DNA of 57,836 nt, taken from Tritonibacter mobilis (GTDB lineage Bacteria; Pseudomonadota; Alphaproteobacteria; Rhodobacterales; Rhodobacteraceae). The notes beneath the pieces were generated by a model. It ran no database searches, was not told the DNA's origin, and saw nothing but the letters and a program-made list of their open reading frames with translations. Below, piece by piece: positions 16,771 to 37,188 of this stretch (positions are counted from its first letter, which is position 1; every line of letters begins with the position of its first letter). The DNA lies in the NCBI RefSeq assembly GCF_001681715.1, contig NZ_LNWY01000026.1, positions 1 through 57,836 on the forward strand. The letters are read 5' to 3'. Made by a program: the position numbers and the translations under genes.

Positions 16771-17835
16771 TCAGCGCGACAAGCACTCGACAAAATCTGC
16801 CCCGATGTCACTCAATAGATCCGTGTAAAACGATGCACCCGGTGCAATTTCAGTACCGAGGGGATCAATCACAACCGATTTGACATCGCGCCCTTCCGCG
16901 ACGGTCGCGACGAGACCGGGATTGAATTGCAGCTCGGAGAACACGCAGGATACATTCGCCTCCGCGATTGCATCCCGAATTTCCGCAATTCGTGCAACGC
17001 TGGGGTCTGATGCATCCGCGAGCGAAATCGCCCCCAACGTGGACACACCAAAGCTGTGTTCAAAATACTGATAGGCGTCATGGAAGACGACAAACTCACC
17101 TTGTGTTTGGCTTAGGTCGGCCTTCACTTGTTCGACAACTGCGTCGATTTCAGCCTGCCCCGCAAGCGCATTGCTCTGGTAAATTTCGGCGTTGGCAGGA
17201 TCAATCTCTGAAAGTTCCTCGGCGATCAGTGCCAACCACTGCTTACCGTTCTGGGGCGCGAGCCATGCATGTGGATCGACACCTTCGTGCGAATGACCGT
17301 GATCCCCATGATCATGCCCCCCATGGCTATGGTCATGATCGGAGTGATCATGGCCATGTGCGTCGTGATCACCATGGTCATGCGCGTGTTCGTCATGATC
17401 GGCGTGATCGTGACCATCGTGATTATGGTCATCGTGACTGTGGTCATCATGCCCGTGATCGTCATGACCGTCTGCCGCAAAGACCGCTCCATTGCGGAAT
17501 TCCAGCTGCAAAGTCCCCGGTGCCTCAAGCAGAGACACAACATGCGCATCAGACGCCAATTCTTCTAACGAGCCTTCCAACCAGGGCGACAGCGCATCTC
17601 CGACCCAGAACACCGCATCGGCCGAAGACAAAGCGCGCGCATCAGAAGGCTTCAGGCTATGCCCATGCGGTGAAGCCCCCGGAGGAACCAGCAGGTCAGG
17701 CTCTCCAACGCCGGCCATTACACGGGCAACCAAACCTTGTACTGGCGCGATATCCGCGACCACTCGCGGTGCCTCCGCAAGAACAGGCAGAGCGGACACG
17801 CTTAGAAAGAGAGCGGACAATACTGATTTGGGCAC
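16771..17835 (-). CDS. znuA: Zinc ABC transporter substrate-binding protein ZnuA
   Basis: A 354-residue periplasmic zinc-binding protein with a signal peptide (residues 1-20, ending LA|EAP). Candidate zinc ligands are His59 (SPHGHSLKP), His189 (DPHAWLAP) and the histidine in VFHDAYQYF. Residues 123-185 form an exceptionally long His/Asp-rich insert of about 60 residues with more than 25 histidines, the charged loop that distinguishes zinc-specific ZnuA. It hands zinc to ZnuBC encoded divergently. The start is GTG with GGAG eight bases upstream. Candidate Zur boxes lie in the shared promoter region. Confidence 0.95.
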   Translation of the reverse strand: MPKSVLSALFLSVSALPVLAEAPRVVADIAPVQGLVARVMAGVGEPDLLVPPGASPHGHSLKPSDARALSSADAVFWVGDALSPWLEGSLEELASDAHVVSLLEAPGTLQLEFRNGAVFAADGHDDHGHDDHSHDDHNHDGHDHADHDEHAHDHGDHDAHGHDHSDHDHSHGGHDHGDHGHSHEGVDPHAWLAPQNGKQWLALIAEELSEIDPANAEIYQSNALAGQAEIDAVVEQVKADLSQTQGEFVVFHDAYQYFEHSFGVSTLGAISLADASDPSVARIAEIRDAIAEANVSCVFSELQFNPGLVATVAEGRDVKSVVIDPLGTEIAPGASFYTDLLSDIGADFVECLSR

Positions 17836-17855
17836 GATTCAGGCTCCAGTGCTGT

Positions 17856-17903
17856 GTTATATCATAACGTCTTTGCCGCTTGATAAACCGCATGTTGTAA
17901 CAT
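17856..17903. promoter_or_regulatory. Two candidate Zur boxes in the divergent znuA / zur-znuCB promoter
   Basis: GTTAT-ATC-ATAAC (17856-17868) and ATGTT-GT-AACAT (17892-17903) are AT-rich inverted repeats that fit the alphaproteobacterial Zur pattern of ATGTTAT / ATAACAT half sites. One lies near each divergent promoter. With zur as the first gene this implies zinc repression of both units and autoregulation. Confidence 0.65.
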
Positions 17904-17939
17904 ATCAATCCCCAATTGACCGCCCTCGAAGGAGGCCCC

Positions 17940-18410
17940 ATGGACAGCGTCGGCTTTACCTCTCACGATCATAACCGCTGCATTTCCGGCGGGCTCCAGA
18001 CTGTCGAGGATTTCTGCAAAACCAATCGTTTGCAGCTCACCCCAGTGCGCCGGCGTGTTTTGGAGATCCTTCTCCAGCAGCATCGCGCTTTGGGAGCCTA
18101 TGAGATTTTGGATTTCCTGCGAGACGAAGGCCTTGGTTCGCAACCGCCAGTCGCCTATCGCGCGCTCGATTTTTTGGTGAAACACGGCTTCGTACATAAA
18201 ATCGAACGGTTGAACGCCTTTATTGCCTGTATGCACCCCGGCGAAACTCATACTCCGGTGTTTATGATTTGCAGATCGTGCGACAGCGTTGCAGAAGCGC
18301 AGCGTGAACCCATGCATGGCCAATTGGGAGATGTAGCACGCGCCGCCGGGTTCGTTATTGAACGCGCCGTCATCGAAGCAGAGGGCCTGTGCCCCAAGTG
18401 CCAAGGGTAG
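17940..18410 (+). CDS. zur: Zinc uptake regulator Zur (Fur family)
   Basis: The 156-residue repressor has a Fur winged helix (LQLTPVRRRVLEILL, then GSQPPVAYRALDFLVKHGFV) and a C-terminal dimer/metal domain. The structural zinc site is given by two CxxC pairs (CRSC and the C-terminal CPKC), and HPGETHTPVFMIC supplies further ligands. In Zn2+-replete cells it should repress znuA and its own operon. ATG at 17940 has GGAGG five bases upstream; an earlier in-frame TTG is not used. It is followed five bases later by znuC. Confidence 0.93.
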   Translation: MDSVGFTSHDHNRCISGGLQTVEDFCKTNRLQLTPVRRRVLEILLQQHRALGAYEILDFLRDEGLGSQPPVAYRALDFLVKHGFVHKIERLNAFIACMHPGETHTPVFMICRSCDSVAEAQREPMHGQLGDVARAAGFVIERAVIEAEGLCPKCQG

Positions 18411-18415
18411 CTGAG

Positions 18416-19165
18416 ATGCGTCTCGTCACGCTGCGGCAGGCCACCATCCGCCACAGCGGAGCGCCTGCACTGGAGAATGTCGACTTCCACATCGACAAAG
18501 GCGAAATCGTCACGATCCTAGGCCCCAACGGGTCAGGAAAATCCACGCTTTTGCGCGCGATTATTCGTGCCATCCCGCTGAGCGCGGGTACACTTGAGCG
18601 CGCAGAAAATCTGCGCATCGGGTACGTTCCCCAAAAGCTTCATATTGATCCGACATTGCCGCTTACAGTCGAGCGTTTCCTGAGCCTGCCCGTCCGCATC
18701 AGCCCAGACGAAGCAGAGGCAGCGCTTTCAGATGCAGGTGCTTCTGGTCTGAGGAAAAGGCAAATGACAGGTCTGTCGGGCGGGCAAATGCAGCGCGTGC
18801 TGCTTGCGCGTGCGCTGCTGTCCAAACCGGACCTGTTGATCTTGGACGAAGCAACGCAGGGGCTGGATCAGCCCGGATCCGCCGCATTTTATCAGAAGAT
18901 CGAGACAGTGCGTCAGCAGTTTGGCTGTGCGGTCCTGATGGTGAGCCACGAGCTTCACGTCGTCATGGCGGCCTCTGATCGCGTGATCTGCTTGAACGGG
19001 CATGTGTGCTGTGAGGGGGAACCAGCACAAGTCGCGAGTGCACCAGAATATCAGGCTCTGTTTGGCACGGGCACGCTCGGTGCTCTCGCGTTGTACCGGC
19101 ATGAGCACGATCACAGCCATGATTGCGACCACGATCATGTTGGAAAAGGACATGAACACGCATGA
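18416..19165 (+). CDS. znuC: Zinc ABC transporter ATP-binding protein ZnuC
   Basis: A 249-residue ATPase with Walker A (GPNGSGKST), ABC signature (LSGGQMQRV), Walker B (LLILDEATQGLD) and the switch histidine (MVSHELH). The C-terminus is a His/Asp-rich tail (HEHDHSHDCDHDH and GKGHEHA), common in zinc-type ZnuC and possibly a metal buffer or sensor. It drives zinc uptake with ZnuB and ZnuA. It starts five bases after the zur stop and overlaps znuB by four bases. Confidence 0.94.
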   Translation: MRLVTLRQATIRHSGAPALENVDFHIDKGEIVTILGPNGSGKSTLLRAIIRAIPLSAGTLERAENLRIGYVPQKLHIDPTLPLTVERFLSLPVRISPDEAEAALSDAGASGLRKRQMTGLSGGQMQRVLLARALLSKPDLLILDEATQGLDQPGSAAFYQKIETVRQQFGCAVLMVSHELHVVMAASDRVICLNGHVCCEGEPAQVASAPEYQALFGTGTLGALALYRHEHDHSHDCDHDHVGKGHEHA

Positions 19166-19971
19166 CCTTCTTGGATGATTTTATGATCCGAGCTGCCCTC
19201 GCCGGCATCGGCGTCGCTTTCGCTGCCGCCCCATTGGGTTGTTTCGTAGTCTGGCGACGCATGGCTTATTTTGGCGATGCCACGGCGCATGCCTCGATCT
19301 TGGGCGTCGCGCTGGCACTCACTTTTGATGTGTCCATTTTCAGCGGGGTGCTTGTCACGGCATTGCTGATGGCCAGTACCATTTCCACACTGAGCGGGCG
19401 TGGATACGCGATGGATACCTTGCTTGGTGTGCTGGCTCATAGCGCGTTGGCCTTCGGCTTGGTTGCCGTTTCTTTTTTGCAAGGCGTACGCGTCGACCTC
19501 ATGGCCTATCTTTTTGGGGACATTCTGGCGGTGTCCCGCGGTGATCTGGCCGTCGTCTGGTCAGGCGCGTTGTTGGTCATTTCGCTGATGTGGTGGCGCT
19601 GGTCCTCGCTGTTGACCGCGACACTCAACCCGGAACTTGCGCAAGCATCGGGCATCAATCCGCAACGTGAGCAACTTGTTCTGACGCTCGCCCTCGCTGT
19701 GGTCGTTGCTGTCGCGATCAAAGTCGTCGGAGTGTTATTGATTGCCGCGATGCTACTGATCCCCGCCGCAACCGCGCGAATATTCTCAACCACGCCCGAA
19801 CGCATGGCGTTTTTAGCGGTTTTGATCGGTTGCGGCTCTGTGATTGGAGGGATGTATATGTCCTTTAGTGCAGACACTCCGACAGGACCAACGATTGTCA
19901 GCACGGGAACGGCGCTGTTTGCAGCAGCTAGCTTGGTTGCCGTGATCGCACGCAGCTTACGCCGTCCATAA
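19162..19971 (+). CDS. znuB: Zinc ABC transporter permease ZnuB
   Basis: A 269-residue integral membrane protein of the ABC-3 metal permease family, with about eight membrane helices. It has the conserved early motif GCFVVWRRMAYFGDATAHAS, the metal-permease signature around SHS/AHAS-ILG, and KVVGVLLIAAMLLIPAATAR in the coupling region. The start overlaps the znuC stop (ATGA). It ends 32 bases from a convergent kinase gene. Confidence 0.94.
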   Translation: MTFLDDFMIRAALAGIGVAFAAAPLGCFVVWRRMAYFGDATAHASILGVALALTFDVSIFSGVLVTALLMASTISTLSGRGYAMDTLLGVLAHSALAFGLVAVSFLQGVRVDLMAYLFGDILAVSRGDLAVVWSGALLVISLMWWRWSSLLTATLNPELAQASGINPQREQLVLTLALAVVVAVAIKVVGVLLIAAMLLIPAATARIFSTTPERMAFLAVLIGCGSVIGGMYMSFSADTPTGPTIVSTGTALFAAASLVAVIARSLRRP

Positions 19972-20003: not shown

Positions 20004-22316
20004 TCAGGCCTCAACCTGCCGTGCAGGTGCAGCATCCGCTCGAACATCATACCACTTGTGTAAAGTCTCAAGCAGAGCTTGCTTTCGGATCGGTTTACTG
20101 AGGAAATCATCCATACCAACCTCCAAACATGCTTCTTCGTGACTTTGCAACGCATTGGCCGTCAGGGCAATGATCGGGACGTGCGGTTGATCGCCTTCGC
20201 TTTCAAGTCGTCTGATTTCTTCAGTCGCCTCAAGCCCGTCCATCACTGGCATCATCATGTCCATGAGGATTAGATCAGGCTCGTCTCTGAGGTACATCTC
20301 AACTGCTTCCTGCCCATTCGCCGCGATCGTAATGTCCACGTTTTCATTCTTGAGCATGCGGGTGACAACCACCTGATTGGTACGATTGTCTTCTGCCATC
20401 AGAAGTTTGATGCGCTTACCGAGCTTTGGACTGCCAGCATCAGATCTATCGCGGCTATTTCCGCTTGCCTCACCACCCAGAGCCTGACTGATGACCACGC
20501 GCAGCTGATCAGCACGCACGGGTTTCAGTACCTGATGGCAAGATCCGATGTCGGCCAACATGGATTGTGACAACGCCGGATCAACAGAAGAAATCACGAT
20601 AATCGGAACCCGCGCCGCATTCGGCAAGCCTCGAATGCGCAAGGCCAATTCGTAGCCATCACAGTCAGGCATGTTGAAGTCGAGGAAAAGCAGATCGCAG
20701 GTGTCCGTCGCGTCCCGCATCTCGTCCAGATGCAGCATGGCTTCCATCGCCGAGGCGGCTTCTGTAACACGCAGGCCCCAGGAGCGCAGCCTTTCACCCA
20801 GAATGCGCCTGTTGAGTTCCAGATCATCTACGATCAGGGCATGCAGCCCGGCAACAGGTTGCTCTGGCAAGAACGCAACAGGGGCGCGGTCGCTCGTTGG
20901 CAATGTGATGTCGATCGTAAAGACAGACCCTTTGCCCTCGCTAGAGGTCACATGAATGCGACCCTTCATCAGTTGAAGAAGGCGGGTCGAGATCGCAAGC
21001 CCGAGCCCTGTCCCTTCAAAGCTGCGAGTTGCGGCTCCGTCCACCTGCTCAAAGGCATGGAAAATCCGGTCTAGCTTCTCTGCTGGAATGCCAATTCCTG
21101 TATCCACCACAGAAATTCGCAGGTCCATTTCTTCGCCGCGCAAAGTCCCGGTCACATCGATATGTACCGATCCTTGCGAGGTAAATTTGACCGCGTTGCC
21201 GACCACATTGGTGATGATTTGTCGAATACGACCCGCATCACCGTCATAGAATTCCACAAGGTCCGGGTCATACCGCAGCGTGAGCTGGACCCACTTTTCG
21301 GCCGCTTTTGGAGCCAAAAGCATAACCACATCTTCAACCACGGTACGCAGGTTGAAGGTCGCCTGCGTCAACTCTAGCTTGCCCGCCTCAATTTTCGAAA
21401 AATTGAGGATATCGTTGATGATAGTCAAAAGAGCGTTGCCCGATTTGACGATCGTATCAGTGTACATTTCCTGATCTGGCGTGAGCTTGGTTTCTCGCAA
21501 AACCTCCGCCATGCCGATCACACCATTCATAGGGGTGCGGATTTCATGGCTCATATTTGCGAGGAACTCAGACTTGGCACGGCTCGCGATTTCGGCTTGT
21601 TCGCGTGCGCGCTCCAATGCCTGCTCGCGCTCATCACGTTCGGCAAAGCTATCTTCCAGAACGCCAACCGAAACATTCAACGCCTGAAACTCTCGGCTTG
21701 AGTACCACGGAAGCGAAGAATGAGCCGTCTTTGCTCCGGCTACTGCATTCGACATTCGCGCATGAACGATCTGCAGCGGGTTGAGAGCCAACCGGTACAC
21801 CAAATAGAGCATCAGCAGCGACATTGCGATCACCGCCAGAACCGTCCAAGTGATCGTCTGGCGCACTTTATCAAGAACGATTTCACGCCCTTCTTCGGTC
21901 GACCATTGAACGACCATTGTGCCAAAGACGAAGCCTTCGAATTCGACCGGGCGGCGATACATCACATAGCCCTCAGCCTCGTCTGCTGAACTATTGGCTG
22001 CCTCCGCGATCACTTCCCCTTCACCATTCTCGATATGAATCGATAGGATCTTGGGGTAGCGCGTGATCGCCTCGACCAGACCGGTTTCCAGCACCGGGAC
22101 GTCCTCGACGATAATCGCTTCAAGCATGAGGCCACTCAGGAGCGAGACCGTCAAATTGGCCTGCTCACTCAATTGCTCGCTGACCCGCTCGACCTCATAG
22201 CGCCGCGCAACACCTCCCACCGCGACCACGACAAGAAGCGCCGCGAGCGACATCGACACGACGATCTGGGACAAGATCCCTTTGCTTTGTAGGAGTGTGC
22301 GCAGTGGCGCTATCAA
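20004..22316 (-). CDS. Hybrid sensor histidine kinase with two receiver domains
   Basis: A 770-residue membrane kinase. Helices near residues 18-38 and 154-178 flank a periplasmic sensor domain of about 115 residues. A HAMP-like linker and coiled coil follow, then the HisKA domain with His257 in [16 protein letters not shown], and the ATPase domain ([26 protein letters not shown]). Two receivers come next, with Asp546 (LFLDFNMP) and Asp686 (LILMDMMMP). No HPt domain or output regulator is nearby, so the phosphorelay must continue elsewhere. The start is a TTG overlapping the stop of the upstream PhnD-like gene (TTGA), which implies coupled translation and a shared sensing job. The likely trigger is a ligand bound by that partner protein. 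Confidence 0.9.
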
Positions 22317-23218
22317 AAGTCGCTGCTCCGTTTCATTGCGCGCCGGACAAAATCATAGTCATCATCGCTACCCGCTAGAAATCCGTTTTTGGCGACGCGT
22401 TTCACCATTTCTTCGTTCTGAGAAGCCAGCATGACTGATTTCATCGCCTCCAGAACTCTTTCGTCCAGATCAGCACGCGCGAGCCAAGGCTTGGTTACGT
22501 TGTCAAACGACACCAACGCCCTGATCGGGACTCCTTTAGCCACCAGCTCTTTGAACGTGCTTTCTTTCAAAGCACCCGCGCTGAACTTACCGGCCCCAAC
22601 CGCCTCTCCAACCAGATCATGACGCCCCAGATACTCGTATCCGTGCAACTCGTTGGCGGAGATACCGGCATCCAACAGATAGGCTTGGGACAGGTAACGT
22701 CCAATGGTCGACAGTTCATCACCAAAGGCAAATGAAAGGCCAGCGAGGTCTTCGACACTTTCTATATCGCTGTCTTTGTGCACCGCAATCACACCTTTAA
22801 AGCGCTTACTGCCTTTTTTGGATTCCATCGCGATAATCGATATGCCCGGATTGCGATCTGTTGCATGGACATAGGATGCTGGACCAAAGCGCGCGAAATC
22901 GACGCGTCCACTGACAAGATCGTCAATGCTGGACTCATAGTCTTTGGAGATTTTCAGACCGATCGTCACTTCCTCGCCCAGACTGGCCTCCATCCGATTT
23001 TCCAGAAATGTCAGGAAGGGGCGATACTTGCGCACAGTAGCGGAGGGCTTGTCAGCGGCGTAGGTGCCAAACACAAGCTCAATCTCAGCGCGAACGGTTG
23101 ATGCAGGCGCGAGCCAAATGATCAACGCAACTATAGCGGTGGCGAACAGTTGCACAAGATCGCAACGTAGAGGCGACTCAGTCTGTGAACGTCGTCCAAA
23201 CGAGTATGCCGTAGGCAT
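22313..23218 (-). CDS. PhnD-like periplasmic binding protein, probable sensor partner of the kinase
   Basis: The 301-residue protein belongs to the phosphate/phosphite/phosphonate-binding PhnD superfamily. An N-terminal hydrophobic segment ([21 protein letters not shown]) acts as signal peptide. The fold landmarks are [33 protein letters not shown] and [14 protein letters not shown]. No transporter genes accompany it; it overlaps a hybrid histidine kinase, so sensing is more likely than uptake. In known systems PhnD-like domains sense tetrathionate (TtrS) and thiosulfate (ThsS). The neighbouring rhodanese fusion makes a sulfur ligand an attractive guess, which is inference only. The ATG at 23218 has GGAGAG six bases upstream; earlier in-frame starts are less supported. 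Confidence 0.86.
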
Positions 23219-23433
23219 GAAACTCTCCAATCTCATCGCTTTCGACCGAGTGTCACCCCCGGAGCGCCCGTTTCCAACCAACTCTATGCCATAGATAAGC
23301 CGAAAACTTATTGAAATTTAACCGGTAATCACTCGTCGCGTGCAAAAATTAACCATCTGGAAAGGATTGCGACGTTTCTATGACGCATCCCAAAACCGCT
23401 AAACGGTTCCCTTTCCGTTCAGAAGGACAACTC

Positions 23434-26400
23434 GTGATTACACCAAACCTACCGCCTTGTATCGCCCGGACGGTTAAAATTTGCTTTTGTTTATTCATAA
23501 TTGCGGCGTTTTTATCCGCAACGCCTTCGGCTGCTTATGCGATACCCTCACCTGAACTGGTCCTTGGATCAGTCTCATCCTTGTCACAGATTCTTGCGGT
23601 GGTTGTAGCGACCATCTCAGGTTTTGGCGCTATCATAGCGTCTCGTCTGGGCCTCAAAACCCGTTCAGGTGGTGGAAAATACCCGACCAAAACGATCTCT
23701 GCATTGATCCTAGTTGCGGTTGCTTTGGCCTTTGCAAATCACTGGCAGTGGCAGCGAAATAAATCGCAGGAACAACAGCGCCTTCAGGCAACTCTGACGC
23801 GCCCGGCTCAGTTTGACGGCACAAAAATCAAAGATGCTGAGTTGAAAGAGACCAGTTACACCGCGCAAGAGACGCATGCTCAGGGCATCACCACCGAAGA
23901 CGCCGCTGCGCTCCTTTCTGAGGGGGATGTGAAGTTCTTCGACATTCGCGAAAGCGCTGAAAACGCGATGGGCACGCTTCCCGGTGCTGAACACATTCGG
24001 TTTCCAGACTTTCGTGAAACACCCCCGGTTGCACCGGGCGATAAGGTTGTCTTGTTCTGCCATAACGGCAACAGAAGTTCGGAAACCTGCACAGAACTGG
24101 CAAAGCTCGGTATTGACTGCCGCTTCATCGCGGGAGGCATCGAAAAGTGGATCGTTGAAGGCCGCTCGTTCTCCGACAGCCGCGTACAAAGCCTCTCTGA
24201 TCTGCGCGCAATCCCAGAGTACCAAAATAAGTCCCGCTTAATGAGCACGGCAGACTTCAAAACCTATATGGAGAGCGGCGCGGCTCAGATCGTCGACACC
24301 CGCTACCCCAAGGATTTTGAAGCAGGACACCTGCCGGGTGCGGTGAACATCCCTCTCAGGGCACTGACGACAAAAGAACTTCAAAGCCGGATCGCAAAAC
24401 TGCGCAAGGTGCCGACTGTCGCCGCCTGCTATGACCGGCGCAGCTGCTTTATGGGGCAAGTGTTAGGTTTGGAACTGACACAAGCAGGCATCCCGTTTGA
24501 GGGCCGCTACACCGTTCCATGGGAGTATTTCATCCCACCCGCTCCGAAACCCCATGTGGTGACATGGATGGCGGAACAGGAAAGCGGACTATGGGATAAG
24601 GCGGTACAAGGTATCAGCGCGGCGCTGATATGGGGCCACAATAAATCTCATCTGCTCTTGAGCCTTCTTGTGATGGCACTGATCTCGCGCATCATGGTGC
24701 TCCCGATCGCGCTGAAATCCGAACGGGATCAAATCAAGCTGCGCGACCATAAAACCGAACTCAACGAACTGAAGAGCACGCTCGCGCATGATCCCATGCG
24801 CAAAGCACGCGCAATCCGCGGCTTTTATGCAAAGCATGGGCTTACGCCAATGCGCAACATGGCAGCGTTGTTGTTCCTACCTCTGATGATGTTGGGGCTG
24901 CAAGCAGCAGAGCGCGCCTCTTCGGGGATCGTTGAGGGTTTTCTTTGGATTGCCGATTTAGGTGCGCCGGATCCGTTGTGGATTGCCCCGGCACTGACCT
25001 GCGCATTGGCTGGGCTCTATCTTGTCCTCGCGATTGCAAAATCCCGTCGTAGTGCGGTGCTTTGGCTTGGCCTCGGTGTGCCTGCTTTGTTTGTGCTCAC
25101 GATGGGACTTTCGGCGGCCGGGAACCTCTATCTCTGTATGAGCCTTATCGGTCTGCTGGCGCAGTATCTGTTCGTCTCCGGCACATTCAGACGGATCGGG
25201 CATAAACTACGCATGCTGTCTCGCCTTCCCGATGGGGCATACAAACTGGGAGATACCGACAAGCTCGCCTTGGCTGGTAACAAGGCTCTGCGCCTTTCGC
25301 ATATGGCCCAAGCAGGTTTCCCCGTTCCAAATGCCGTGGTCCTAACGGATGGCTTTCTAACCCGGTATCGTGCGGCCAATGCGCGCCAACGCGCACACAT
25401 GGCCAGCAAGATTTGGCAATACATTGGGCCGAACCCATGTGCAGTGCGCTCCTCTGCCAGCAACGAAGATGGCGCCGAACAGAGCTTTGCCGGGGTGTTT
25501 GACTCTGCGCTCGACGTGAAAGAGCACAATATCGCGGAGGCCATTGAGACCGTGCTGGCGTCGTTCAGTTCTGATCGGGCCGACAGCTACCAGATCGCCA
25601 GCGCGGGTCAGGCCAATATCCTCGTGCAGGAAATGGTTGATGCCTCCTTTGCGGGCGTGCTGTTCACCCAGGATCCTCAAGCACCAGGTATGATGCTGCT
25701 GGAGTGGGTCGAGGGATGTGGTGAGGATCTTGTATCCGGGCGCAAAACCCCTGGAACCGCGCGGTTTGGCCGTGTCAGTGGCTCGCAAGCCCCCGATACC
25801 GAGACGCCGCCCTTTGATCCCACACATCTATTGCAAATGGGACAAGCTATCGAGACTCTGTTTGATCAAGCTCAGGATATCGAATGGGCCTGGGCAGACG
25901 GGCAATTCTACATCCTGCAATCGCGTGACATCACGACCGTTGCCGTTGGCAGCGAGTCTGAACAGGCCGCTGCAGAGGAATGGCGTCGCTTGTTTGCGTC
26001 ACGCAGCACGAGCGATGATCCCGAAGGTATCATTCTGGAGCAAGACGAAATGAGTGAGGTGCTTCCGCGCCCCACTCCGCTCTCTTTTTCCTTGATGACC
26101 GACCTCTGGGCACCGGGCGGCAGCCTTGATCTGGCAAGCCGTGCCCTCGGCCTGCCCTACACGCTGCCCGAAGGGCCGGATGCGCATCTCGTACGGTTGT
26201 TTGGTAAGACCTACGTCAACACTAGCATGAAGAAGAAGCTCGCAATGGACCTGCGGGGCAATCGTGCAAATCGTCTGCGCAAGCAATTGCAGCCCACATT
26301 GGAGGCGTTCGAGCGCGATGTATTGCCGAAGCTGCAGGATCGTGTCGAAGATTGGCAGGCCATGCGTTTTGAGGCTCTGCCGCAGCGCAAATTGCTGGAG

Positions 26401-27441
26401 GCAATCTCGCAGATACGCGACTACTTTGTCACCGGCATTTACGTGGAAGCCGAGAAAATCAACCTGCTTGCGGCCTTTGCGATGCAAGAAGCCAACTCTG
26501 CTGCGCAGGGTGATCCCGCATTGCGCAGTCACCTCATGCAAGCAGAGCTAAAATACTCGCCCGCAAGTCTGCTTGCACAATGCAAGGGCAGCGAAGACGA
26601 CGCACAGGCCCGCGCATTGGAGTTGATGGGCCATCGGGCGATGTTTGACTATGAGCTGTCAACGCCGCGCTATCATGAGGCACCGGGGCTATTGTTCACC
26701 CTGCTTGACCCCTCTCACGAGGCTTTGGAGCCTTCGCAGTTGCCTCAAGGCGTGCCTCAAGACCTGAAGCACACCCTTGAAATGGCAATTGCATTTCAGG
26801 ATCTGAAAGAGCGCGCCAAACACGAGGCGCTGCGGGTTCTGAACGAGATGCGCCGGGCCTTGCGCGCCTTTGCAGATCAAAATGGACTAGGGCAGTTGGT
26901 GTTCCACCTTACAATGGAAGAACTTCTCACCGGCGACTGGGCGCAGCCTGAACGCCTGCGTGAACGCGCTAAAGAACGGCAGCGTCACGATGAGCTATGC
27001 CGCGAGCACGCTCCCACCAATGTGCAGCTCAGTTTGCTGGATTGCGAACATCTGTCGTCGGGCGCTGTGAAAACGCTCGAAGATGGTGCTTTGGGTGGGA
27101 TCTGTGTTGCCGGTTCTGGCAACGCAACGGGTCGTGTGTTCCGGGTGGCGGATGAGACCGCCTATGGCCCCGACGCCTTTGAAGGGTTCGAACCCGGCGA
27201 CATCATCGTATGCCACATGGTCAATCCCGCATGGCTTCCGCAAGTCCAGCAAGCCGGAGCGGTGGTCAGCATCGTCGGCGGTTGGCTTAGCCATATGGCG
27301 ATTGTTGCCCGCGAAAAGCACATCCTGATGCTCGTAGGCGCCCAAGGCCTTGATGCGCTGGCGCAAGGTGACATCATCACCGTGACGGATAGCGGCGAGA
27401 TTGAGCCGCAAAACAACGAGTCTCAGGCGCTACGCGCCTAA
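23434..27441 (+). CDS. Fusion of two rhodanese domains, a YidC/Oxa1-like core and a PEP-synthase-like enzyme
   Basis: A 1335-residue membrane protein (numbering from the GTG at 23434, AAGGA six bases upstream; an in-frame ATG at 23380 is the alternative). A signal-like helix (16-36) and two more helices (about 52-72 and 88-104) come first. Two rhodanese domains follow at about 152-245 (Cys209 in CHNGNRSS) and 270-365 (Cys332 in CYDRRSC), both with the active cysteine. Residues 405-585 resemble the YidC/Oxa1 core: five helices, the groove arginine in SRIMVLPIALKSE, and the charged loop ending GFYAKHGLTPMRNM. Next come a PEP-synthase ATP-grasp domain at 605-835 (NPCAVRSSASNEDGAEQSFA, LQSRDIT), a middle region beginning DEMSEVLPRPTPLS, and the swivelling phosphohistidine domain with His1287 (GGWLSHMAIVARE). 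The whole order is conserved in frame without stops. Substrate and partners are unknown. Confidence 0.87.
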   Translation: MITPNLPPCIARTVKICFCLFIIAAFLSATPSAAYAIPSPELVLGSVSSLSQILAVVVATISGFGAIIASRLGLKTRSGGGKYPTKTISALILVAVALAFANHWQWQRNKSQEQQRLQATLTRPAQFDGTKIKDAELKETSYTAQETHAQGITTEDAAALLSEGDVKFFDIRESAENAMGTLPGAEHIRFPDFRETPPVAPGDKVVLFCHNGNRSSETCTELAKLGIDCRFIAGGIEKWIVEGRSFSDSRVQSLSDLRAIPEYQNKSRLMSTADFKTYMESGAAQIVDTRYPKDFEAGHLPGAVNIPLRALTTKELQSRIAKLRKVPTVAACYDRRSCFMGQVLGLELTQAGIPFEGRYTVPWEYFIPPAPKPHVVTWMAEQESGLWDKAVQGISAALIWGHNKSHLLLSLLVMALISRIMVLPIALKSERDQIKLRDHKTELNELKSTLAHDPMRKARAIRGFYAKHGLTPMRNMAALLFLPLMMLGLQAAERASSGIVEGFLWIADLGAPDPLWIAPALTCALAGLYLVLAIAKSRRSAVLWLGLGVPALFVLTMGLSAAGNLYLCMSLIGLLAQYLFVSGTFRRIGHKLRMLSRLPDGAYKLGDTDKLALAGNKALRLSHMAQAGFPVPNAVVLTDGFLTRYRAANARQRAHMASKIWQYIGPNPCAVRSSASNEDGAEQSFAGVFDSALDVKEHNIAEAIETVLASFSSDRADSYQIASAGQANILVQEMVDASFAGVLFTQDPQAPGMMLLEWVEGCGEDLVSGRKTPGTARFGRVSGSQAPDTETPPFDPTHLLQMGQAIETLFDQAQDIEWAWADGQFYILQSRDITTVAVGSESEQAAAEEWRRLFASRSTSDDPEGIILEQDEMSEVLPRPTPLSFSLMTDLWAPGGSLDLASRALGLPYTLPEGPDAHLVRLFGKTYVNTSMKKKLAMDLRGNRANRLRKQLQPTLEAFERDVLPKLQDRVEDWQAMRFEALPQRKLLEAISQIRDYFVTGIYVEAEKINLLAAFAMQEANSAAQGDPALRSHLMQAELKYSPASLLAQCKGSEDDAQARALELMGHRAMFDYELSTPRYHEAPGLLFTLLDPSHEALEPSQLPQGVPQDLKHTLEMAIAFQDLKERAKHEALRVLNEMRRALRAFADQNGLGQLVFHLTMEELLTGDWAQPERLRERAKERQRHDELCREHAPTNVQLSLLDCEHLSSGAVKTLEDGALGGICVAGSGNATGRVFRVADETAYGPDAFEGFEPGDIIVCHMVNPAWLPQVQQAGAVVSIVGGWLSHMAIVAREKHILMLVGAQGLDALAQGDIITVTDSGEIEPQNNESQALRA

Positions 27442-27506: not shown

Positions 27507-28430
27507 ATGACGACACCGTTTGATCCACAGCAGGCAAACCGCCTGCTCAGTACAATAAAATCCCGTATTGAAACGCTGCCGCCGAAGCTGAAAACGGCGG
27601 CGAAATATGTAATCGACTCCCCCGGCGACTTCGGCCTCGACCCGATCCGGGTCAGCGCCGACAAAGCAGGCGTCAGCCCCAATACGCTAACCAGACTCGC
27701 CGAAGTCTTTGACTATCCCGGCTTTGAGAGTTTTCGCGCGCCCTTTCGGGCCGCGCTGGTCACAGATCGAGAAGCGGACCTTGGCATGGACTGGCTCGAT
27801 CAGCTTGCCACCGGTGATCGCACATCTGCGCTACAAGCCCGCGCGGCGCGCAATGCACTCAATATCACCGCGCGCTCGCTTCGGCTGATGACACCAGAGC
27901 GAACTGCGGCACTCATTGCTGCGATGACCTCTGCACGACATTGCTTCATCACCGCGAGCAGGTCGACACATGCGCTGGCGTATTATTTCCATTACGTTGG
28001 TCGCATGGCGCTGCCAACGTTGGAGTTGGTGCCGCGTCATATGGGGGATGCGGCGGATGATCTGCTTGATATCGGCCCGGAGGATTGCCTGTTCGCAATG
28101 ACCTTTGCCCCCTACTCTACCAGCACGATCCGCGCGATCCGCATGGCGCATGAGGCGGGCGCGACAGTTATCTTGCTCTCGGACAGCGACACGATTGCAC
28201 CGGGCGTTCAGGCGGATCACCAACTCACATTTTCCGCGCAGTCTCCCCATCATTTCGGATGCCTATCGGGCGCGATGGTGATCCTGGAGAGCCTCTTGTC
28301 CCATCTGATCGACGCGGGCGGCAAAGCTGCGCAAACCCGGATTGCACGCTATGAATCTCTCCGCCAAGACAATGGCGTCTATTGGAGCGGCAAGCGCCTG
28401 CCGCGCGCTCCGACCAGACCGCCAGAGTAA
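27507..28430 (+). CDS. RpiR/MurR-family transcriptional regulator
   Basis: The 307-residue protein has the N-terminal helix-turn-helix of the RpiR family (residues 20-85, including VSADKAGVSPNTLTRLAEVF) and a SIS sugar-phosphate-binding domain at about 130-265 (RHCFITASRSTHALAYYFHY, then LFAMTFAPYSTSTIRAIRMA). Members usually respond to sugar phosphates, but some in Rhodobacterales accompany amino-acid genes. It lies 65 bases downstream of the fusion gene on the same strand and convergent to the amino-acid symporter gene. The target is not evident. A GAGG element precedes the ATG. Autoregulation is suggested by the inverted repeat just upstream. Confidence 0.85.
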   Translation: MTTPFDPQQANRLLSTIKSRIETLPPKLKTAAKYVIDSPGDFGLDPIRVSADKAGVSPNTLTRLAEVFDYPGFESFRAPFRAALVTDREADLGMDWLDQLATGDRTSALQARAARNALNITARSLRLMTPERTAALIAAMTSARHCFITASRSTHALAYYFHYVGRMALPTLELVPRHMGDAADDLLDIGPEDCLFAMTFAPYSTSTIRAIRMAHEAGATVILLSDSDTIAPGVQADHQLTFSAQSPHHFGCLSGAMVILESLLSHLIDAGGKAAQTRIARYESLRQDNGVYWSGKRLPRAPTRPPE

Positions 28431-33699: not shown

Positions 33700-34512
33700 T
33701 CAGAGGATCTTTTTCCGCAGGTAAGAAGACACCACCTCACCAAACACCACCAGTGCAAGAATGGTAAGCAACACCATCGATACTTCTGGCCAGTTAAAGG
33801 TGTCGATCGCGCCCTGCAGGATCATTCCGATACCGCCAGCCCCGACAAGACCCAGCACCGTGGATTCTCGCAGGTTGATATCCCAGCGCAGGATGGCCAC
33901 TGCAAAAAACGCCGGCATCACTTGCGGGACAATACCGTAGAGAACAACTTTGAAACGTGACGCGCCACAGGCTTCCAGTGCCTCTACCGGCTTGCGGTCG
34001 ATTTCCTCAATCGCCTCACCAAGGAGTTTGCCCAAGAAGCCAATGGAGCGGAACATGATCGCTACGATGCCCGCCACGATACCGGGGCCAAAGATTGCCA
34101 CAAACAGCAGCGCCCAGATAATGGTGTTCACCGACCGCGAGGACACGAGGATAAACCGACCGACCCAGAGCGCGAACTTGTTCGGGGTGGTGTTCTGCGC
34201 CGCGATATAGGCCACCGGCAGCGAGACGACGACAGCGATCATCGTGGCCAGCGTGGCAATGTTGACCGTCTGCCAGATCGCTTCAAGGATCGAGGGCAGA
34301 TTGCTGGGATCGGGTGGCATCATCCGGCCAAACAGGTCGCCCATCTGCGAGGGGGCATCCCAGACCCATTCCCAGATCACATCGATACTGCTCAGGGCCC
34401 ATGCGACGACCAGCAAGGTCAGCGCAAAACCACCATAGCGCATCACCCTTTGACGCAGAGTGAAACGAGACCAGTGGTCGAGGGTTTGGTTCAAAGACTG
34501 ACTGGTCATCAT
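33700..34512 (-). CDS. phnE: Phosphonate-type ABC transporter permease (PhnE, second copy)
   Basis: A 270-residue inner-membrane permease with about six helices and the conserved loop EAIEEIDRKPVEALEACGAS, the EAA-type coupling motif that contacts the ATPase. It pairs with the upstream PhnE-type protein as the membrane part of the transporter. Its ATG overlaps the stop of that gene, so they are coupled. Two adjacent ATG codons (34512, 34509) are possible. It is the last gene before the operon terminator. Confidence 0.92.
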   Translation of the reverse strand: MMTSQSLNQTLDHWSRFTLRQRVMRYGGFALTLLVVAWALSSIDVIWEWVWDAPSQMGDLFGRMMPPDPSNLPSILEAIWQTVNIATLATMIAVVVSLPVAYIAAQNTTPNKFALWVGRFILVSSRSVNTIIWALLFVAIFGPGIVAGIVAIMFRSIGFLGKLLGEAIEEIDRKPVEALEACGASRFKVVLYGIVPQVMPAFFAVAILRWDINLRESTVLGLVGAGGIGMILQGAIDTFNWPEVSMVLLTILALVVFGEVVSSYLRKKIL

Positions 34513-35303
34513 GCAATCCGCTTTCTGATAAATCCGCTCACCGCCTCGGAGACGAGGATCACGCCGACGATCACCATGGTGATGGCGAGGGCAAAGTCGT
34601 AGTCATAGCGACCAAAGGCATTGGCGAGGGTCGCGCCGATCCCGCCCGCACCTACGATCCCCACCACGGCAGAGGCACGCAGGTTACTGTCGAGCTGATA
34701 GATCCCCAAACCAACCAGACGTGGCATGATCTGCGGCATCACCGCATAGGCCAGCGTGGCGATGAACCCCGCCCCGGCGGAGCGCATGGCCTCTACCTGA
34801 CCAAAGTCGATTTCCTCGATCCGTTCTGCGAGCAGTTTGGCGACAAATCCGACAGAGTAGACCACCAGCGTCAGCGCACCCGCAAAGGGGCCAAAACCCA
34901 CGGCCTTGACAAAAATGATCGCGACGATCACCGGGTGAAAGCTGCGCGCGACAATGATGATGCCCCGGCCCAACAGGTAGATCGGACGGATCGAAATGTT
35001 GCTTGCCGCCATGAACGCCAATGGCACCGAGATTGCAATACCGCCCACGGTGGCAAGGATCGCGATTTTCAGGCTTTCCAGAAAGCCATCAATCAACAAT
35101 CCCGAACGCTCAAAGCTGGGCGGGAACGCCCCGCTGAAAATCCGCTGGGCCCGTGTCATACCGTCTGAAACGCGCGCCCAATCGATAGGCAATGTAGCGA
35201 GTGTCACCACAAAGTAGATCGCGACCGCAGCATAAAATCCGTAACGCACAAGCGGGTTGGAAATGAACGGCGGCTTGCTCCATGTGTCCTTGATCGCGCT
35301 CAT
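34509..35303 (-). CDS. phnE: Phosphonate-type ABC transporter permease (PhnE, first copy)
   Basis: A 264-residue permease with about six helices and the coupling motif AERIEEIDFGQVEAMRSAGA. It resembles the following gene product at the level of family motifs, so the channel is probably a heterodimer. It starts within the last four bases of phnC (ATGA-type overlap) and overlaps the next permease gene by four bases. Confidence 0.93.
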   Translation of the reverse strand: MSAIKDTWSKPPFISNPLVRYGFYAAVAIYFVVTLATLPIDWARVSDGMTRAQRIFSGAFPPSFERSGLLIDGFLESLKIAILATVGGIAISVPLAFMAASNISIRPIYLLGRGIIIVARSFHPVIVAIIFVKAVGFGPFAGALTLVVYSVGFVAKLLAERIEEIDFGQVEAMRSAGAGFIATLAYAVMPQIMPRLVGLGIYQLDSNLRASAVVGIVGAGGIGATLANAFGRYDYDFALAITMVIVGVILVSEAVSGFIRKRIA

Positions 35304-36073
35304 GCCGCCGCCCCGACCTGCGCACGGTCCTCTGCTGGCACCCCTGCGTAAATCTCGTCCATCTCGCCCTTGCCCAATTTCTCGGGCAAATCGTCAAAGA
35401 TGATCCGACCATAACGCATACCTACGATGCGGTCGCTGTATTCCTTGGCTTCGGTGACGTTGTGAATGTTGATGATCACTGGCAGTTTCAACTCGCTGGC
35501 CAGATCCCGCAGCAGCGACATGATCTGTTCGGAGGTCTTGGGATCGAGCGAGGCCGTTGGTTCATCCGCCAGCAGGATCTCGGGGCGCTGCATCAACGCG
35601 CGCACCACACCAACCCGCTGGCGTTCACCACCAGACAACTCGTCGGCGCGTTTGTCGGCGTAATGGGCGATCCCCACGCGTTCCATCAGTTCATAGGCGT
35701 GGCGGATATCTTCGCGCGGGTAGCGCCGGGTGAGTGCCGCCCACGTCGAGATATAGCCCAACCGCCCGGACTGTACATTTTCCATCACCGTCAACCGGTC
35801 AATCAGGTTGAAGCTCTGAAACACCATCCCGATCCGGCGGCGCGCCGCACGCAATTCTCGGCGGTTCAGGGTGGTAAACTCTGTACCGTTCAGATCAATG
35901 GACCCGGACGTGGGTTCCACCAGACGGTTAATGCAGCGCAGCAATGTGCTTTTACCTGCGCCCGACGAGCCGATCACGGAAGTGAGCTGGTCCCCTTCCA
36001 CAGTCAGATCGAGTTCTTTCAACACAGGATCACCCGATCCATAGCGTTTGGTCAGTTTGGAAATCTTCAGCAT
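35300..36073 (-). CDS. phnC: Phosphonate-type ABC transporter ATP-binding protein PhnC
   Basis: The 257-residue ATPase has Walker A (GSSGAGKST), signature (LSGGERQRV), Walker B (EILLADEPTASLD) and the switch histidine (NIHNVTEAKEY). The spacing is typical of PhnC. It energises import of phosphonate, phosphite or a related anion. The ATG at 36073 has GGGAG six bases upstream; the longer open frame overlaps phnD and is rejected. No C-P lyase genes are in the window. Confidence 0.94.
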   Translation of the reverse strand: MLKISKLTKRYGSGDPVLKELDLTVEGDQLTSVIGSSGAGKSTLLRCINRLVEPTSGSIDLNGTEFTTLNRRELRAARRRIGMVFQSFNLIDRLTVMENVQSGRLGYISTWAALTRRYPREDIRHAYELMERVGIAHYADKRADELSGGERQRVGVVRALMQRPEILLADEPTASLDPKTSEQIMSLLRDLASELKLPVIINIHNVTEAKEYSDRIVGMRYGRIIFDDLPEKLGKGEMDEIYAGVPAEDRAQVGAAA

Positions 36074-36162
36074 GGCGGTCTCCCGGACATAGCGCGGCCC
36101 TGCCTCTGCCGCGATGCCCTCTGGCACAGGAGGCAGAGACGCACGGGAGGCCGCGAAAAGCA

Positions 36163-36187
36163 CCCGGCCAGACCAATGCTGACCGGG
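36163..36187 (-). promoter_or_regulatory. Intercistronic hairpin after phnD
   Basis: On the minus strand CCCGGTCAG and CTGGCCGGG pair over nine positions with one wobble around a 7-nt loop. It lies 21 bases after the phnD stop and before phnC, without a T-run, as in the other two binding-protein operons of this window. Confidence 0.5.
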
Positions 36188-36207
36188 CTGTTTCGATTTT
36201 GGTGGGA

Positions 36208-37188
36208 TTAGTTCCCGGCGAGACCCTGAGGGGTATATTCCACGCCGTTGGACTTTTGAATCTGACGGATAACCGCCCATTGATCCTTATAGGTGATCGG
36301 GATGAACTTGCTCACGCCCTCAAACTCGTCGCCCAGTTTGGTGCCCTCGAAATCAAAGGAGAAGAACGCTTCTTTGATCTTTTCCGCCAGTTCCGGGTCG
36401 AGGTTATGTGCAAGAGTGAACGAAGTTGTTGGGAACGGATCGCTTTCCCAGATTTTGCGCACGTCTGCAGGATCATAAAGACCACGTTCGGCCATCCGAT
36501 CGACCACTTCCGACGCCACCGGTGCGGCATCGTAATCGCCCGCAACCACGCCCAGCATCGATTGGTCGTGCGAGCCGGAATAGATCACCTCGTAATCCTT
36601 GTCGGGCTCCGCTCCGAGATCCGGGAACAGCGCGCGCGGCGCCTGGTTGCCGGAGTTGGAAGTCGGCGAGGTATGCGCGACGCGGCGACCAGCCAGATCC
36701 TTCACATCCTTGATGTCGCTATCAGCCTGTGTGAAGACCTGCAGTTTGTAGCCAAACTGACCATCCTCAGCGCCCATGATGGCGAAAGGCACAGCGCCTG
36801 CGAGGTTCACCGCAAATGGGGTTGGTCCGGTGGAGAAACCCGCCACATGCAGACGGCCAGAGCGCATAGCTTCAACCTCGGCAGAGTTAGACTGCACCGC
36901 AAAGAACTGAACATCCTTGCCTGTTGTTTCTTCCAGATGCGCGATGAACGGCTCCCAGATGTCGGCATAAACTGCAGGATCCTCAACCGGTGTATATGCA
37001 AAGACCAGCGTGTCGGGGTTGCTCAGTTCCGCCGGATCGGTTGGCGTATCTGCAACCAGATCGCCATTGGCGTCGCAATACAGAACGTCCAATGCGCCAC
37101 GCTCGGCACAATCTTCAGCGGCTGCCGCAAATGCGCTTGCGGACAGGATGCCCAGAGCTGCAGCGGCACGGGTGATAGTTCTCGTCAT
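36208..37188 (-). CDS. phnD: Phosphonate-type ABC transporter substrate-binding protein PhnD
   Basis: A 326-residue periplasmic protein with a signal peptide (MTRTITRAAAALGILSASAF, cleaved near AAA|ED). It carries PhnD family landmarks: FAYTPVEDPAVYADIWEPFI, the binding-site segment HVAGFSTGPTPFAVNLAGA and VAHTSPTSNSGNQAPRALF. It binds the anion and passes it to PhnCE. The length is normal for PhnD. The ATG at 37188 has GGAGG six bases upstream. It is the first gene of the operon and divergent from the response regulator/kinase pair. Confidence 0.94.
   Translation of the reverse strand: MTRTITRAAAALGILSASAFAAAAEDCAERGALDVLYCDANGDLVADTPTDPAELSNPDTLVFAYTPVEDPAVYADIWEPFIAHLEETTGKDVQFFAVQSNSAEVEAMRSGRLHVAGFSTGPTPFAVNLAGAVPFAIMGAEDGQFGYKLQVFTQADSDIKDVKDLAGRRVAHTSPTSNSGNQAPRALFPDLGAEPDKDYEVIYSGSHDQSMLGVVAGDYDAAPVASEVVDRMAERGLYDPADVRKIWESDPFPTTSFTLAHNLDPELAEKIKEAFFSFDFEGTKLGDEFEGVSKFIPITYKDQWAVIRQIQKSNGVEYTPQGLAGN

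Follow-up and report, generated by a model that had tools for sequence, protein, structure and literature searches.

Oxa1-superfamily proteins are known as protein insertases, of which the Gram-negative YidC has in addition a periplasmic P1 domain; rhodaneses carry their catalytic cysteine in a loop of six residues. The rifampin phosphotransferase Rph is described, in the passages of PMC4844700 used here, with the order ATP-grasp domain, substrate domain, and C-terminal histidine, whereas phosphoenolpyruvate (PEP) synthase and PPDK have the histidine in the middle of the chain; R117 and K22 of Rph bring ATP into position, and its R666, E667, and K670 form a second active site. Two-component dikinases related to Rph phosphorylate phenols, according to the part of PMC12167813 consulted. 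In a 57,836-nucleotide stretch of Tritonibacter mobilis DNA (contig NZ_LNWY01000026.1; this whole stretch is the window, to which all coordinates refer), we analyzed a fusion gene, FUS (23380..27441, plus strand), whose single open frame encodes 1353 amino acids (aa) in the order rhodanese, rhodanese, YidC core, ATP-grasp domain, middle domain, and phosphohistidine domain. The triple fusion seems to be a hitherto unstudied type of membrane machine, since it is met again in distantly related bacteria and we found no report on it. No account of the combination of rhodanese, YidC, and phosphotransferase, of which the preliminary description of this DNA knew none either, turned up in searches of 5.39 million open full-text papers (subscription papers lay outside this scope), and the main text of the Rph paper (PMC4844700) contains neither the word rhodanese nor the word YidC. 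We tentatively read FUS as a conserved inner-membrane Rph-type phosphotransferase, in which a YidC-like groove would link the enzyme to sulfur chemistry in the periplasm and which would be associated with an oxyanion sensor.

Analysis of the FUS frame with Pfam identified Rhodanese in two stretches (79.6 bits), 60KD_IMP, the YidC/Oxa1 family, over aa 427–599 (43.1 bits, with a cut-off of 35), PPDK_N (105 bits), and PEP-utilizers over aa 1270–1335 (56.2 bits). When a family profile of 32 hand-picked rows (A4) was compared with solved chains, it matched E. coli YidC over 388–602 (E 4e-24), human OXA1L (1e-12), PEP synthase and Rph (to 9e-65), and the rhodanese 6mxv (3e-17). The active-site cysteines C227 and C350 are present, as are R437 of the groove and H1305. 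The uninterrupted frame with tandem rhodaneses, intact cysteines, YidC/Oxa1 core, ATP-grasp domain, and phosphohistidine that the preliminary description had reported is thus borne out by the open reading frame (ORF) map, Pfam, and the profile, and the YidC/Oxa1 match lies in the region where it had been placed. Besides 23380, the start of the longest frame, 23434 is a later in-frame candidate and had been used as the start before; because conservation is poor upstream of about residue 33 in an alignment of 33 proteins hand-chosen from the 120 listed close relatives, the start codon of FUS is not settled. The AlphaFold models of both FUS halves were poor (mean pLDDT of 53.1 and 52.7, from five-row alignments) and were used for no inference.

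The join is not peculiar to one assembly. In a close search of 5.8 billion proteins, 642 relatives were scored with E values of at most 1e-10, and all 120 of those listed, the protein of the window included, carry all four Pfam domains; a distant-relative query scored 434 proteins at E 1e-20, and 118 of the 120 listed carry all four. The four domains therefore stand together in at least 238 listed proteins, the window's own included. An assembly or annotation artefact joining separate genes is refuted by the 120 complete listed relatives and by the fusion on complete plasmid records of named strains; nothing was found in its favor, and we regard its probability as practically nil. Taxon names, given for few of the listed distant relatives, comprise Planctomycetota/Planctomycetes (11) and Gammaproteobacteria (one, a metagenome-assembled genome [MAG]), and a query with the N-terminal half returned 74 proteins, including partial MAG sequences labelled Hyphomicrobium and Bradyrhizobium. 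Database names of these proteins follow one domain or another, and in JGI some names combine several of them. Within the genus, FUS is present in 16 of 18 genomes, its own included and one with the gene in two contig pieces; a class sample of 385 genomes gave two matches, both within the family. A 97.6% identical protein is encoded on large plasmids of T. mobilis, and 81 of 72,556 plasmid records have a FUS match over at least 80% of the query; in the rows listed, copies of Phaeobacter and Leisingera (L007, L010, L011, L012, and others) lie on plasmids of about 108–268 kb.

Residue conservation was assessed in an alignment of 17 Rhodobacterales-clade rows, 6 partial rows, and 30 distant rows, taken at every fourth id between P0195 and P0311, with invariants counted on its 47 full-length rows. 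Across these rows 125 positions are invariant, and the two clades share 31–38% identity, about 34%. The mean between-clade identity to the window's protein is highest in rhodanese 2 (48.9%), followed by rhodanese 1 (43.2%), the ATP-grasp domain (42.3%), the His domain (38.8%), the middle domain (30.0%), the YidC part (29.5%), and the N-terminus (22.4%). Among individual relatives, PF27448 is precomputed for many of P0195–P0312 and is not among our local Pfam matches; Acyl_transf_3 is precomputed for P0258 as well, and one row of A4, which includes P0258, matches it. In the genome G241 (L039/L050), a protein search shows two stops in the span matching FUS, yet the ORF picker gives an open frame of 1345 aa.

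Rhodanese 1 (aa 171–258, 23890..24153; all FUS features lie on the plus strand) and rhodanese 2 (about aa 288–382, 24241..24525) were delimited by Pfam and conservation. Both show the rhodanese fold, and in each the catalytic cysteine lies in a loop of six residues: C227 (24058–24060) in CHNGNR of the first and C350 (24427–24429) in CYDRRS of the second. In all 47 full-length rows, D188, R190, C227, G230, and R232 of rhodanese 1 and D306, R308, C350, and R354 of rhodanese 2 are invariant; C237, C247, and C356 are not universal, and one of the six partial rows has Gly at 354.

The YidC/Oxa1 core (aa 427–599, 24658..25176; Pfam, profile, and alignment) follows, and 31 of the 32 A4 members match YidC at E 1e-3. 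As had been proposed, a groove arginine and a charged first cytoplasmic hairpin are found: R437 (24688–24690) aligns with the helix-1 arginine of YidC chains, which we take to have a role in the groove, and is invariant in 47/47 full-length rows. In the place of the P1 domain of Gram-negative YidC, FUS has its two rhodaneses. An ordinary YidC (212 bits) is encoded elsewhere in the same genome, which rules out FUS as the housekeeping copy. The hydropathy profile shows three N-terminal helices, a long soluble rhodanese stretch, and then four of the five YidC helices above threshold, the helix near aa 493–512 falling below it and a swivel-domain stretch (1292–1310) rising above it; of the five helices claimed earlier, the profile match thus supports a five-helix core and hydropathy sees four. 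The first N-terminal helix resembles a signal peptide (aa 27–54, ending SAAYA/IPSPEL, 23458..23541; hydropathy and conservation), and the adjoining A-I-P-S-P motif is near-invariant (A54 in 45, I55 in 44, and P56, S57, and P58 each in 46 of the 47 full-length rows). Two more hydrophobic helices at about aa 64–92 and 101–120, with a basic loop between them, were recognized by hydropathy (23569..23739). If AYA-IP is assumed to belong to a signal peptide and the topology of YidC is assumed for the core, the rhodaneses would be periplasmic and the phosphotransferase cytoplasmic, a plausible topology.

The C-terminal half of FUS has the domain order of Rph, and comparison of the family profile with the Rph chain 5hv1 gave an alignment over 635–844 and 1059–1340. 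The ATP-grasp domain (PPDK_N, about aa 625–860, 25252..25959; Pfam, conservation, and alignment) contains the ATP-site residues K635, R690, E835, Q847, and R849, which are invariant in 47/47 full-length rows, and R690 aligns with R117 of Rph. In the middle, presumed substrate domain (about aa 880–1235, 26017..27084; alignment), the later part aligns with the rifampin-binding domain of Rph, and the invariant residues K1143-E1144-K1147 (within 26806–26820; 47/47) align with R666-E667-K670. The Arg-Glu-x-x-Lys second site of Rph is therefore Lys-Glu-x-x-Lys in FUS, with Glu and Lys kept and Arg replaced. The phosphohistidine swivel domain (aa 1270–1335, 27187..27384; Pfam and conservation) bears GGWLSH, whose H1305 (27292–27294) is likewise invariant in 47/47 rows. 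A pyruvate-binding barrel had no Pfam match in FUS or among the families of the 32 A4 rows. The Rph-like domain order and the aligned ATP-site, second-site, and histidine residues suggest dikinase chemistry, by which the FUS enzyme should turn ATP into AMP and Pi, phosphorylate its own histidine, and pass the phosphate on; the acceptor is not necessarily rifampin-like.

Divergent from FUS lies a gene for a PhnD/PtxB-like periplasmic oxyanion-binding protein (SBP; 22313..23281, minus strand; Pfam, profile, and co-occurrence), followed by a gene for a hybrid histidine kinase with HisKA, HATPase, and two receiver stretches (20004..22316, minus strand; Pfam), whose longest frame overlaps the SBP gene by 4 nucleotides (nt). 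The SBP matches PF12974 with 157.9 bits (cut-off 27) and shows the fold and oxyanion pocket of this group: the Tyr, Ser-Thr, and His-Asp motifs of PtxB chains have aligned counterparts in it, with Ile for the second Ser of S-T-S. Its nearest solved relatives are 5jvb (5e-25), 5o2j (9e-21), and 5lv1, and AioX (6esk) matches at 2e-5. The part of PMC5408782 seen describes PhnD-like sensors responsive to tetrathionate and thiosulfate, the latter being called chemically similar to alkylphosphonates, and the PhnD-like AioX, ArxX, and ArrX, encoded beside a sensor kinase, bind arsenic oxyanions, as stated in the passages used of PMC5908839. From its likeness to the PhnD/PtxB proteins and to these sensors, the SBP–hybrid kinase pair probably senses an oxyanion.

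The SBP occurs in 14/14 FUS carriers and in 1/380 non-carriers among the same 394 family genomes (Fisher p 8e-25, uncorrected for kinship). It lies within three ORFs of FUS in 27/29 loci, as does the kinase; these counts come from a longest-ORF picker, with the SBP of L046 and L061 added by tblastn, and the planctomycete members are not among the loci. The exceptions are G161, where a contig ends and a piece of the kinase lies beside FUS, and G036, where the SBP–kinase pair is on another contig. The pair still adjoins FUS at 41% identity despite a changed gene order (L054 and L055). The single non-carrier with the SBP, the genome G130 (L068), has the SBP and hybrid kinase and no FUS match at E 1e-40, which would mean that FUS was lost there or that the pair has another use as well. 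Alignment of the divergent intergenic regions revealed a motif, TTAACCATCTGGAAA (23349..23363, plus strand), with TTAAC at the aligned place in 21 of 22 regions; the 22 were drawn from the 29 loci, several being close kin, and L054 and L055 with their other gene order and five loci without clean anchors were omitted. In the window alone the longer pattern is weak, with 1 match where 0.11 are expected and a presence in 11/100 shuffles.

Two other sets of neighbors were ascribed to synteny. Genes for zinc-type ABC uptake (a His-rich ZnuA-like protein, a Fur/Zur-like protein, an ATPase, and a permease; 16771–19971) adjoin the kinase gene, and a MurR/RpiR-type regulator (27507–28430) lies directly downstream of FUS; two Leisingera plasmids have a ParD/ParE pair between FUS and the RpiR-type gene. 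The ZnuA cluster is found in 21/29 loci and the RpiR-type cluster in 10/29 (including Phaeobacter, Leisingera, Tritonibacter, and Ruegeria TM1040). Since both are missing in distant loci, we rejected them as functional partners. At 33700–36280, two ABC permeases and an ATPase resemble PhnE, PhnE, and PhnC by eye and by shared clusters, and PhnE, PhnE, and PhnC are annotated within 10 kb of FUS in Tritonibacter scottomollicae (L009). A phage origin was also rejected: five phage records match only 11–17% of the query, and 0/39 candidate stretches in viral contigs were confirmed. In a PADLOC scan for anti-phage defence, FUS and the SBP had no match, and the kinase had four weak matches over its kinase and receiver parts.

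A split form of the gene was found in 2/78 genomes of another order of Pseudomonadota, both of one genus. In G1003, an N-terminal half of 633 aa and a kinase half of 690 aa are adjacent genes whose longest frames overlap by 4 nt; in G891 the same pair shows the same overlap, its second gene leaving the contig at 427 aa and the C-terminal piece lying on another contig. The first genes keep an A-L-P-T-P start and the groove arginine, with weak YidC matches of 24.1 bits (under the cut-off) and 37.4 bits (over it). The kinase genes keep KE..K and the histidine, as seen in G1003 and in the C-terminal piece of G891.

On our tentative account, FUS would operate as follows. The tandem rhodaneses, exposed to the periplasm, would load sulfane sulfur on C227 and C350 and serve in the fused form as a sulfur donor or receptor. 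The five-helix YidC-like core would provide, with R437 as its fixed positive charge, a groove at the inner leaflet that feeds or passes a substrate toward the cytoplasm, where the ATP-grasp domain would phosphorylate H1305, with ATP converted, as in Rph, to AMP and Pi. The histidine domain would then swing to the middle domain, and transfer of the phosphate to the substrate at the K-E-x-x-K site would make the step one-way, a vectorial phosphotransfer. The observed basis of this scheme consists of the domains, the conservation of residues, the recurrence across phyla, the split form, and the co-inheritance with the SBP; its topology, catalysis, and direction are inferred. A bolder version of it, which we consider quite unlikely, is group translocation of a new class, in which an Oxa1-superfamily core would be a small-molecule conduit, a rhodanese persulfide would load the cargo from the periplasm, its capture by phosphohistidine, for example as a thiophosphate-type or phosphorylated sulfur compound, would pull it to the cytoplasm, and a dedicated oxyanion sensor would exert control.

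Several observations weigh against this account. In the split form, no rhodanese match up to E 1 is listed for the first genes, and neither rhodanese site has an aligned cysteine, the alignment being uncertain at such distance; because this form keeps one part and not the other, the YidC–kinase pair appears to be the core and rhodanese chemistry something that can be lost, and sulfur is unlikely to be the universal substrate. The groove arginine is replaced by Gly in one of the six partial rows (P0160), and R666 of Rph corresponds to K1143 in FUS. None of the 25 NCBIfam models listed among 49 FUS matches reaches its cut-off, and the best of them is the ligase RedH (1.3e-47), with PEP synthase models also among the best; given the likeness to RedH and PigC, the second half-reaction could be a ligase-type condensation rather than phosphotransfer. 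The nearest solved SBP chains are named phosphite- or phosphonate-binding, not sulfur-binding. SoxB is not enriched (6/14 carriers vs 12/17 non-carriers), giving no link to thiosulfate oxidation, and SelD over its cut-off (10/14 vs 14/17) gives none to selenium; the 17 non-carriers were the first listed, a non-random set with G025 omitted, and G130, positive for both SelD and SoxB, is in neither group. The distribution within the family is patchy, with FUS in 14/394 genomes. Of the interpretation offered in the preliminary description, the domain identity and order, the active-site residues, and a plausible topology hold, and a coupling of sulfur chemistry to phosphotransfer, transport, and a thiosulfate substrate remain conjectural. 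The domain order does recur in other genomes with a conserved sensor pair beside it, and that description had overlooked this pair together with the PilZ-bearing relatives and the split form.

The persistence of the YidC–kinase pair without rhodanese cysteines in the split form would also fit a membrane-fed kinase for a lipid-soluble alcohol or phenol, whose core would extract a hydrophobic substrate from the inner membrane leaflet for the Rph-type enzyme to phosphorylate, the rhodaneses merely sensing the redox or sulfur state or supplying sulfur in some lineages. The Rph-type dikinases named in the consulted parts of PMC4844700 and PMC12167813 act on rifampin or phenolics, and the KE..K and His sites suit such a role. 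However, conservation within the fused form is highest in the rhodaneses, both cysteines being invariant, and in the six most distant loci (L050–L055), where most neighbors are unannotated, only the SBP and kinase recur within three ORFs, and we regard such a kinase as possible but doubtful.

The PilZ domain suggests another role, in which the periplasmic rhodaneses and the SBP–kinase pair would read the outside, phosphohistidine and PilZ (cyclic di-GMP) would relay the signal to motility or surface life, and the YidC part would be a scaffold. PilZ is listed for 90/120 distant relatives by hand count, is C-terminal in 4/6 scanned distant members, and is matched in 14/32 A4 rows, but it is found in 0/120 of the close relatives listed. 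The SBP and hybrid kinase adjoining FUS would serve such a device, as would the conserved upstream TTAAC, which we take to be reminiscent of a CtrA box. The split pair of G1003 is divergent from a run of what are presumably flgF, flgG, flgA, flgH, flgI, flgJ, flgK, flgL, and fliW-like genes (L071, 4383–12896), and that of G891 lies 2.7 kb from genes that we take to be flgF- and flgG-like from their sequences; these flagellar neighbors were nevertheless seen in just two genomes of one genus. A complete enzyme of ATP-grasp, middle, and swivel domains, its catalytic residues invariant, also seems excessive for a relay. We consider a signaling device unlikely. The full-core YidC match, the groove arginine, and the charged first cytoplasmic hairpin would in turn be expected of a specialised insertase for particular membrane proteins, with rhodaneses in place of P1 and a kinase that regulates or modifies the clients. 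We find this very unlikely, as the genome has its separate 212-bit YidC, only one other part is less conserved between the clades than the YidC part (29.5%), and we know of no insertase fused to an enzyme.

In FUS, an Oxa1-type core is joined to an ATP-using enzyme, a union that has persisted across phyla. Should the enzyme act on the content of the groove, FUS would represent a phosphotransferase coupled to the membrane that resembles none of the transporters and insertases known to us, and Rph-like enzymes with no assigned substrate would gain a membrane-bound branch. The sensor pair beside FUS points to an inducing anion.

Comparison of FUS with known systems places each of its parts beside a described family. 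With the YidC/Oxa1/Alb3 insertases (E. coli YidC, 5mg3; YidC2, 3wo6; OXA1L, 6zm5) it shares the five-helix core, the groove arginine, and the charged first hairpin, but it differs from them in its tandem rhodaneses for P1, its two extra N-terminal helices, and its C-terminal enzyme, and it is not the housekeeping copy. Tandem rhodaneses and thiosulfate sulfurtransferases (6mxv, 3gk5, 1yt8, and GlpE 1gmx) have the same fold by profile and six-residue loops; unlike those tandem proteins, FUS keeps the cysteine in both domains, has CYDRRS as its second loop, and is membrane-bound. The SBP is paired with a histidine kinase as in the PhnD/PtxB/AioX systems with sensor kinases (aio, arx, and arr clusters), a comparison that also takes in TtrS, with its PhnD-like sensor domain, and ThsS; here, in contrast, the second Ser of S-T-S is Ile and the partner is a triple fusion. 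The prodigiosin-type ligases RedH (1.3e-47) and PigC (1.8e-38) are the best NCBIfam matches, with the best stretch over the ATP-grasp part, but at 162 of 1350 bits and 132 of 1300 bits they fall far under the curated cut-offs, and to our knowledge neither has a membrane core or rhodaneses. PEP synthase and PPDK share the ATP-grasp domain and swivel histidine, whereas FUS is without a barrel match and has its histidine at the C-terminal end instead of the middle. The arrangement of ATP-grasp domain, substrate domain, and C-terminal swivel histidine is common to FUS, Rph (5fbs/5hv1), and the phenol dikinases HpeHI, CreHI, and PpsAB, and FUS and the Rph-type dikinases have in common the conserved second-site Glu and Lys and the ATP-site Arg. 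Unlike Rph, FUS has Lys1143 for Arg666, and its enzyme is attached to a membrane core and rhodaneses.

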